Shown here: positions 53,886 through 56,139 of the stretch, piece by piece
How positions within the stretch are numbered: the first letter of the stretch is position 1
Layout of the letters: each line of letters starts with the position of its first letter
Source: Halorussus pelagicus
Lineage (GTDB): Archaea > Halobacteriota > Halobacteria > Halobacteriales > Haladaptataceae
Length of the DNA: 64,000 nucleotides
Direction: 5' to 3'
Assembly (NCBI RefSeq): GCF_004087835.1
Contig: NZ_CP035119.1
Location: 2,914,001 to 2,978,000, forward strand
Translations under genes and position numbers: made by a program
The notes under the pieces: generated by a model
Database searches by the model: none
What the model saw: only the letters and a program-made list of their open reading frames with translations
What the model was told of the DNA's origin: nothing

Positions 53886-54098
53886 ATGACGGCAGTCAAA
53901 GTGATCAAGGTCCTCGGCACCTCCGAGGAAGGGTGGGAGCAGGCCGCCCACGAAGCGGTCGAACAGGCGAGCGAGACTATTGAGGACATCCACGGCGTCG
54001 AAGTGGAGGACTAGACCGCGGACGTGGAGAACGGCCGGATTCAGGAGTACAAGACGACTGTCGAAGTCGCGTTTCCGGTCCACCAACAGCAGGAGTGA
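53886..54098 (+). pseudogene. dodecin, interrupted by an in-frame TAG
   Basis: Frame MTAVKVIKVLGTSEEGWEQA to HGVEVED (42 residues), then TAG at 54012-54014. It continues in the same frame TADVENGRIQEYKTTVEVAF to the TGA at 54096-54098. Together this is a full 70-residue dodecin, a flavin-binding dodecameric protein. The TAG is one base from CAG (Gln) or TGG (Trp). Termination there would remove the last two beta strands. No other lesion is present, so the mutation is recent, strain-specific or a sequencing error. Confidence 0.8.
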
Positions 54099-54130
54099 GC
54101 GGCGGCCGGGCGGTCGGGCGGTCGATTTTT

Positions 54131-54173
54131 CACCCGAACTTGTCCGGTTTCAGGAGCGACACCAGTCCGACCA
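54131..54173. repeat. 43-bp direct repeat, left copy
   Basis: Identical to 55601-55643 at 41 of 43 positions and in the same orientation. On the minus strand it would encode the last 14 residues (LVGLVSLLKPDKFG) and stop codon of a paralogue of the membrane protein at 55600-56139. The halocin C8-like gene lies between the copies. Sequence beyond the repeat differs. Confidence 0.85.
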
Positions 54174-54315
54174 CAGCGAGGTGACTGCGAGCGAATGGAC
54201 TCGACTGACTACCGGACCGTGAGCCGGTAACGAAGCGATATCTCCGGCTTACCCGTCATGGCCGTGATTCTACAGGATACTTTGAGATTCAAGCAGCGAA
54301 GATTACTCAAAATAC

Positions 54316-54340
54316 GAAGAGTATTTTATAAATATTCTTC
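54316..54340 (+). promoter_or_regulatory. AT-rich promoter with near-palindrome before the halocin-like gene
   Basis: A 25-base near-palindrome with arms GAAGA..TATTT and AAATA..TCTTC centred on a TATA-like TTTTATAAA, 42-66 bases before the ATG. The whole stretch 54280-54381 is very AT-rich compared with its surroundings. It may bind a dimeric regulator over the TATA box. Confidence 0.5.
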
Positions 54341-54381
54341 AGTCGAAAATATTATCTCTGTATATTTCATCCTTTCAGCTG

Positions 54382-55491
54382 ATGTCTGAGAAAGATGATG
54401 AGATGGGTGGAATAAATCGGAGAAACCTCATCAAGAGCTCTGCCGCCGCAGGTGCGCTCGGTACGAGCGGCGGAGCGCTGAGTTCGGTGTTCGGTACTGT
54501 CCGGGCGGAAGAGGCCACGGCCAGCGACATCGAGCAGATCAAGCAGGCACCGGGCGTCCAACAGATTCTTGACGAACTCGGCGTCGAATCGCTTCCGGAC
54601 CCCGAGAAAGTCGAGAAGCGACGCCTCGAAGGCGACGGCGAGGTCACGGACGGCGAACTCGTCATGATGAAAGTCGAGTTGAAGTACGGGACGCTCCTCG
54701 CCGCAAAGCGGAACGGTCAGATCGGGACCGTCTTTACGTTCGATAGGGACCTCTCGTCGGCACCGACCAACTACTCGATAGTGACTGAGACGGGCGGGTC
54801 GATAGCGAGTACCCGCTCCGACGTTGAGTTCGCGCGGGGCGTTACCGACGCCGAGGAGGAACGCGTCCTGTCAACGCTCGACGTTGACGGTAAGATCGAG
54901 CGAACGAGGATACAGGCGACCACGGCCATCGACGGGTTCCGCGTGAAGTTGGCAGTGACCGACCCGGAAACCGACGAACTGGAAACGCCGGAGTACCTCG
55001 TCAACGTCGGCCGAGGGTTCGACCCGAAATCCGAGGAGTTCACTGGGCCATCGGCTAGTCTGCGCTCCGTCTCCGCGTCCGGCCACACCTCCCAGCGCGT
55101 CACGACGGAGGGCATCGGAACCAAAATAATCGCGGACATCCTCAAGGATTGGCTCCTCGCCAACGTCATCAGTGGGACGCTCGACGAACTCGGCATCGAG
55201 TGTGACGACACCTGTACTAACTGTGGGCTGTGGATTTACGACGTAGTGACTGCCTGCGGGACGTGTGTCGGCTTCTGTTCGAGCAGCGTGAGTGGCGTCG
55301 GTGCGATCCTGTGCGTCGCTTGTTTCTACGCGTTCTGTAGCAAGCCCATCAGCGGTGAGGCGAACTGCGCGGCCTGTATGGCGTGTCTCCTCACGGGCGA
55401 CGAACCCGACGTTCCCCCGAACCCGCCGAACGCCTTCCTCAACTGGGTCTGGGACGAACTGCCGTCGCCGCCGTCGCTCCCGTCCATCTGA
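54382..55491 (+). CDS. halocin C8-like antimicrobial peptide precursor
   Basis: 369 residues. Tat signal INRRNLIKSSAAAGALG (11-27). Residues about 45-270 form a soluble domain in the position of the HalI immunity part of the halocin C8 precursor. Residues about 271-340 are a Cys-rich hydrophobic core with 12 Cys (274, 278, 281, 292, 295, 299, 311, 314, 319, 329, 332, 335) set in Gly/Ala/Val-rich helices. A Pro-rich tail of about 30 residues ends ...PSLPSI. Halocin C8 itself has 10 Cys and no such tail (from memory). I infer export as a folded precursor and cleavage near residue 270. The gene lies between 43-bp direct repeats. Confidence 0.78.
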   Translation: MSEKDDEMGGINRRNLIKSSAAAGALGTSGGALSSVFGTVRAEEATASDIEQIKQAPGVQQILDELGVESLPDPEKVEKRRLEGDGEVTDGELVMMKVELKYGTLLAAKRNGQIGTVFTFDRDLSSAPTNYSIVTETGGSIASTRSDVEFARGVTDAEEERVLSTLDVDGKIERTRIQATTAIDGFRVKLAVTDPETDELETPEYLVNVGRGFDPKSEEFTGPSASLRSVSASGHTSQRVTTEGIGTKIIADILKDWLLANVISGTLDELGIECDDTCTNCGLWIYDVVTACGTCVGFCSSSVSGVGAILCVACFYAFCSKPISGEANCAACMACLLTGDEPDVPPNPPNAFLNWVWDELPSPPSLPSI

Positions 55492-55599: not shown

Positions 55600-56139
55600 T
55601 CACCCGAACTCGTCCGGTTTCAGGAGCGACGCCAGTCCGACCAGTCCAAGGATAACCCCGAAAACCGCCGCGTCCGCGGCGGCCCAGAGCGAGTCCGCCA
55701 GAAACGCGTCGGCTGCGAAACCGAGGAGTCCGATTCCGAGGAGGAGACCGACCGCGCCGACCGGTCGCGCTGGTCCCATCGGAAGCGACGGCCCGACGAG
55801 GTGAGCGAGCGCAAACGCGACCAGTGCGACGAACCCCGCGAATAACTCTCTGTTAAGAAAGGACTGGCCCTCCGGGCCGACGAGCGCCAGCACGCCGAGT
55901 GAGACGGCCCCCGCGAGCAGGACGGCGACGCCTTCCTGTCGGGTCGAGAGTCGGTTCGAGACCCGCGAAAGGTGGAGGTAGCCGAACCAGACGACGACGA
56001 GAACGGCGACGCCAGCTACCTTCGCCAACACGTCGGGGTCCGTGAAGTCCTCGAACGAACGGAGGACCATGGCGAGGAAGATGAGACCGACAAGTGCGTA
56101 CCCGTACGGACGAAGTCGGTCGAACGTGTTCGCTACCAT
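55600..56139 (-). CDS. six-helix membrane protein, 179 aa
   Basis: Six hydrophobic helices spread evenly over the protein (about 14-30, 40-56, 71-88, 98-114, 125-145, 153-175). It ends LLKPDEFG. It lies tail to tail with the halocin-like gene, and its 3' end is duplicated on the other side of that gene. It could be a host gene used as an insertion site or a membrane immunity factor; nothing in the sequence decides this. The start at 56139 has TTATTATCGC about 25 bases upstream. Confidence 0.7.
   Translation of the reverse strand: MVANTFDRLRPYGYALVGLIFLAMVLRSFEDFTDPDVLAKVAGVAVLVVVWFGYLHLSRVSNRLSTRQEGVAVLLAGAVSLGVLALVGPEGQSFLNRELFAGFVALVAFALAHLVGPSLPMGPARPVGAVGLLLGIGLLGFAADAFLADSLWAAADAAVFGVILGLVGLASLLKPDEFG

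Follow-up and report, generated by a model that had tools for sequence, protein, structure and literature searches.

The window analysed here, a stretch of 64,000 nucleotides from the haloarchaeon Halorussus pelagicus (NZ_CP035119.1, positions 2,914,001 to 2,978,000), carries a gene for a Cys-rich protein of 369 residues with the build of a secreted precursor and, converging on it from downstream, a gene for a small hydrophobic membrane protein (Table 1). The first of these had been singled out in an initial annotation as a halocin C8-like precursor, and the outline drawn there, namely a Tat signal, a middle domain and a hydrophobic core of 12 Cys followed by a Pro/Trp-rich extension, is borne out by the open reading frame, a TAT_signal match and homologues that keep the core. 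As these homologues run the full length of the protein and retain both core and tail, the gene is no chance reading frame.

Table 1. Features of the precursor locus (positions within the window)
Feature	Position	Strand	Evidence
Putative remnant of a second partner 3' end, VGLVSLLKPDKFG*	54130..54173	-	Direct repeat with 55600-55643; 95% identity over 44 nt
AT-rich upstream region	54240..54381	+	GC 0.366 vs 0.652 window-wide
25-bp near-perfect palindrome GAAGAGTATTTTATAAATATTCTTC over TATA-like box	54316-54340		41 bp ahead of start codon
Precursor gene, 369 aa	54382..55491	+	ORF, ATG start; homologues 42-53% identical over full length
Predicted Tat signal, residues 1-42	54382..54507	+	Pfam TAT_signal, E 2.7e-4 (slightly short of model cut-off); 25 relatives all keep R13 and R14
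Middle domain, about residues 43-215	54508..55026	+	Alignment A1; G103, R152, T155 and E158 invariant
VTTEG, residues 240-244, candidate release site	55099..55113	+	Query form of the V-x-[TIA]-Q motif
12-Cys hydrophobic core, residues 274-335	55201..55386	+	Cys positions, alignment, dN/dS
Pro/Trp-rich tail, residues 336-369, motif WVWDELPSPPSLPSI	55387..55488	+	Confined to one clade; dN/dS
179-aa membrane protein with some 5 TM segments, a candidate for immunity	55600..56139	-	BLAST homology to neighbours in relatives

The Tat motif reads INRRNLIKSSAAAGALG, and the TAT_signal match (residues 11-28), together with the invariant Arg pair, gives the protein the opening of a precursor that would be Tat-exported on the halocin C8 plan, with signal cleavage predicted near VRA/EEA. 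The core Cys (positions 274, 278, 281, 292, 295, 299, 311, 314, 319, 329, 332 and 335) follow a spacing of 3-2-10-2-3-11-2-4-9-2-2 that is unlike that of halocin C8, as had been claimed; they form CxxC and CxxCxxC motifs and sit in Gly/Ala/Val-rich hydrophobic segments devoid of His. Past the last Cys the Pro-rich tail, LLTGDEPDVPPNPPNAFLNWVWDELPSPPSLPSI, continues for 34 residues with two Trp and is conserved in homologues. AlphaFold2, run on the precursor with four sequences as input, returned a mean pLDDT of 38.6, which is too low for the model to be relied on. The palindrome ahead of the gene is absent upstream of the relatives, and is thus not a conserved element.

The precursor family and its tail-bearing clade

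Homologues were recovered from 26 of 391 haloarchaeal genomes by protein searches and from 43 by profile searches (25 of 86 genera), in a patchy distribution and with a gene tree cutting across families; among 393 genomes sampled from the phylum none was seen outside the haloarchaea, every match falling within the order of the genome itself, and scans of genome contigs returned two loci only. On alignment A1, which comprises 25 members, we define here a family of predicted Tat-exported, Cys-rich precursors by its middle domain and its C-terminal Cys-rich core, and both alignment and profile place the window protein within this TGxGA-core family. The C terminus keeps the pattern [ST]GxGA-x2-C-x2-C-x4-C, the number and spacing of Cys vary widely, and most members stop at, or shortly past, the last Cys. 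Apart from Tat-type models and isolated weak matches, the 25 members match no Pfam or NCBIfam family. PADLOC and PHROGs returned nothing for the window protein, and a profile search of the PDB found Tat signals only; PDB matches from a separate search, to zinc fingers of the glucocorticoid receptor (E 3-9), were discarded as Cys-driven chance. A viral origin is not supported, with no relative among phage records or viral contigs. A published survey of archaeal antimicrobial peptides (Makarova et al. 2019, cited in PMC10105419) may already cover the present family. Some distant members lie next to one another, two or a few at a time (L124, L131, L134 and L116, in G390, G225, G346 and G139:C17).

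Seven members bear the tail: the window protein, those of Haloferax larsenii NCIM 5678 and JCM 13917 (the latter gene interrupted; its assembly contains an ambiguous base), that of Natronolimnohabitans sp. A-GB9, and those of genomes G214, G131 and G203. In a tree the six intact ones form a single clade with 100/100 support. The closest relative of the window gene there is a Haloferax plasmid gene from a different family of organisms, so lateral transfer is likely and the precursor gene has probably spread by this route. One pair of clade members, 87% identical, gave dN/dS values of 0.056 (tail), 0.062 (core), 0.105 (middle domain) and 0.63 (linker); with a single pair and few sites, their order counts for more than the values themselves. 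Purifying selection is strong on core and tail and relaxed in the linker that leads into the core. Since selection holds the tail as tightly as the core, the tail is functional, either as part of the product or as something to be recognised, and the linker behaves like a segment destined for cutting. Furthermore, V-x-[TIA]-Q-like motifs, a pattern picked after the sequences had been seen, occur in the linkers of 21 of 46 precursors (the present family together with halocin C8-type proteins) against 6.4 in shuffled linkers, and at sevenfold lower density outside linkers.

The convergent membrane-protein gene

Relevant accompanying genes had initially been thought missing; this was wrong, for 109 bp downstream sits a conserved gene for a membrane protein, in convergent orientation. 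A gene of this kind lies directly beyond the precursor at all seven tail-bearing loci, the window locus thus having both the tail and the neighbour that mark the clade, and at the six loci with longer partners the gap is 57-155 bp. Partner lengths are 179 aa (window), 182 (JCM 13917), 126 (G131), 132 (G203) and 117-118 (Natronolimnohabitans and G214); the partner in NCIM 5678 is a 95-codon open frame, truncated to two TM segments. By BLAST the window partner is related to the downstream neighbours in JCM 13917 (E 1e-20) and G131 (E 2e-7), and the G203 partner is linked to this group (E 1e-26); the 117-118 aa pair has just a similar end (VKPDLL vs KPDEF) and may be unrelated to the rest. Outside the clade a similar neighbour was found at only 2 of 20 testable family loci, one of them the clade's sister, L015. 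A profile built on the partner has its four top places beside the sample's four precursors, and about 11 further genomes have homologues with no precursor in the vicinity (at loci L159-L167, none within 1.5 kb), as has G005, of the same genus. Such orphans fit an immunity gene, but a generic membrane protein too. No lanthipeptide synthetase lies beside the precursor, whose nearest genes are TraB-like, M50-like, purM, GNAT and ETF.

Three genomes of the same genus have the gene order purM, dodecin, GNAT. In one of these, G007, dodecin and GNAT are about 85 bp apart with precursor and partner both absent; in the window the two genes fill this gap. The 44-nt repeat upstream of the precursor encodes VGLVSLLKPDKFG, where the partner's own end reads VGLASLLKPDEFG, and it is left over from a second copy of the partner or from a cassette exchange. 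Codon 43 of the dodecin gene in the window (53886-54098, + strand) is an in-frame TAG, in place of the TGG (Trp) of three relatives from the same genus; the TAG is either a nonsense mutation or a sequence error.

A candidate antimicrobial peptide

The window protein is probably the precursor of an antimicrobial peptide, Cys-rich and secreted, and the separate membrane protein encoded beside it would be of immunity type. The Tat pathway would export the precursor while the middle domain holds the C-terminal part folded and inactive, and a secreted or membrane protease would then cut the variable linker at about VTTEG. The product, of 126 residues and near 13.1 kDa (14 acidic and 3 basic residues), would consist of an amphipathic helix, a disulphide-stapled hydrophobic core and the tail, and would target competing haloarchaea at their membrane; the small convergent membrane protein would protect the producer. 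Several observations speak for this proposal: a conserved middle domain joined to a divergent Cys-rich C terminus across the 25 aligned members, a relaxed linker ahead of a constrained core and tail, the enrichment of V-x-[TIA]-Q in linkers here as in those of halocin C8-type precursors, a partner present at every tail-bearing gene, rare elsewhere in the family and with orphan homologues, a patchy occurrence with a gene tree across families, the absence of both genes from G007, and a closest named homologue in a strain reported to produce halocin HA3. Against it, homology to proven halocins is absent, the CxxC pairs would suit metal binding too, and the partners are short and diverse, with homology demonstrable for some only and the NCIM 5678 copy truncated.

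To our knowledge, few halocins have been traced to their genes. A bolder form of the proposal, which we put forward tentatively, is that these genes represent a novel class of bacteriocins in archaea that has no kinship to halocin C8, with a Tat precursor, a functional tail and a dedicated, separately encoded membrane immunity protein, and whose H. larsenii member may be halocin HA3. If so, the locus would supply a second gene-level model of a halocin, built on a precursor family separate from halocin C8 and a conserved membrane partner, would open a route to many more halocins with an immunity question open to a single knock-out, and would offer a candidate gene for HA3.

The rival that survives best, though we regard it as unlikely, is an exported cell-surface protein with a metal-binding or redox function and no antagonistic role, for which the hydrophobic core would be the anchor. 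The Tat pathway exports folded proteins and many secreted haloarchaeal proteins are Tat substrates, so that predicted Tat export suits such a protein as well as the CxxC and CxxCxxC motifs do; however, the Cys lie in hydrophobic Gly/Ala/Val-rich segments lacking His, their number and spacing differ widely across the family, and neither the sporadic, laterally spread occurrence and relaxed linker nor the convergent membrane partner favours this account.

Halocin C8 and halocin HA3

Halocin C8 is the best described halocin, and its one precursor carries both toxin and immunity. The resemblance of the window protein to proC8 extends to a Tat signal, a large middle domain, a Cys-rich hydrophobic C-terminal core and a linker often furnished with V-x-[TIA]-Q; the plan of the precursor, as predicted, is that of halocin C8, but the sequences are not. 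TIGR04449, correctly named in the initial annotation as the NCBIfam model of the halocin C8-like domain (halocin_C8_dom), was there taken as the profile on which kinship of the core should turn, and it leaves the window protein unmatched even at E=10, the 25 relatives unmatched at E=1 and 10 more distant relatives likewise unmatched. The model works elsewhere, scoring above cut-off in 42 of the 391 haloarchaeal genomes; among the loci it brought in is one (L041) whose core matches halocin C8 exactly. Profile-profile comparison (hhalign) gave a probability of 0.8% between the two cores and of 0.2% between the middle domain and the HalI-like middle domain, against 0.1% for a reversed control, so the idea of a HalI-type, immunity-like middle domain finds no support, even if the two middle domains may have a common fold that profiles miss. 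A full-length hhalign match of 97% was discarded as a sign of kinship: the Tat region was its source and the signal vanished once this was removed. In place of ten Cys with C8 spacing the window protein has 12 otherwise spaced, a 34-residue tail and a conserved, separate membrane partner. What remains of the proposed new halocin subclass is thus a distinct group with its own Cys spacing and conserved tail, outside halocin C8.

That the gene is nonetheless a strongly diverged halocin C8 homologue, its middle domain conferring immunity as HalI does and the neighbouring membrane protein incidental, we consider improbable: the same plan, the linker motif common to many members of both families and the occurrence of TIGR04449 genes elsewhere in this genome and on the plasmid of H. 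larsenii accord with it, but core and middle domain lack profile similarity, the Cys spacing differs and the partner is conserved within the clade. The Halorussus genome itself has three true halocin C8-type genes (G000:C1:417137, 1557201 and 2303422; L059, L079 and L080) and, as its second member of the new family, a gene without the tail (425203-426195, L002), 8 kb from one of them. An additional N-terminal leader, approximately ELNxxVDxGGGCxETW, precedes the Tat signal in L025 and L007 of the new family and in L047 and L056 of the TIGR04449 set, which suggests a joint handling step or module swapping. Four halocin C8-type proteins (L054, L062, L063 and L064) have a short conserved tail past the last Cys that ends like IINVDIPYI.

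Least probable is that M48 membrane metalloproteases are the general partner of the family, in maturation or immunity, and that the tail clade swapped it for another: an M48 gene lies within 1.5 kb at 6 of about 26 family loci (L010, L016, L019, L021, L030 and L037) and at no TIGR04449 locus, and with some six M48 genes per genome an estimated 0.2 linked family loci would be expected, but the linked proteins are of several kinds and none adjoins the window gene. M48 genes beside family genes (L010:6810-7820, L076:4974-5942, L083:4156-5421, L021, L030 and L037) are candidates for release or self-protection at their own loci.

The closest named homologue of the window precursor is KU306_RS16550 (WP_258303652.1), annotated as a hypothetical protein on plasmid pHl5678-1 of H. 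larsenii NCIM 5678. It is homologous over its full length (49% identity by tblastn), with the same 12 Cys and tail motif; its locus differs in an M48 protease gene upstream and in the truncated membrane protein downstream. This strain is listed in a review as the producer of halocin HA3, of 13 kDa (PMC11509114), to which no gene is assigned in the literature that we found. By calculation, a cut after VTTQ would give KU306_RS16550 a C-terminal part of 14.5 kDa, and a cut a little further on one of 13.3-13.9 kDa. Because the same plasmid also bears a true halocin C8-like gene, a TIGR04449 match 3.4 kb off whose product by an analogous cut would weigh 10.3 kDa, the link to HA3 is one of strain and approximate mass, and KU306_RS16550 may be taken as a lead to the HA3 gene. 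A comparable arrangement is described for HmHapP (HFX_0892) of Haloferax mediterranei, a secreted precursor activated by proteolysis; its active part, unlike that proposed here, lies at the N terminus and has two alpha helices (PMC12893001). The H. larsenii plasmid holds a third precursor-type gene, which encodes another member of the present family (L170:7005-7886; NZ_CP078064.1 233004-233885), 3.3 kb from a gene for a CAAX-type membrane protease.
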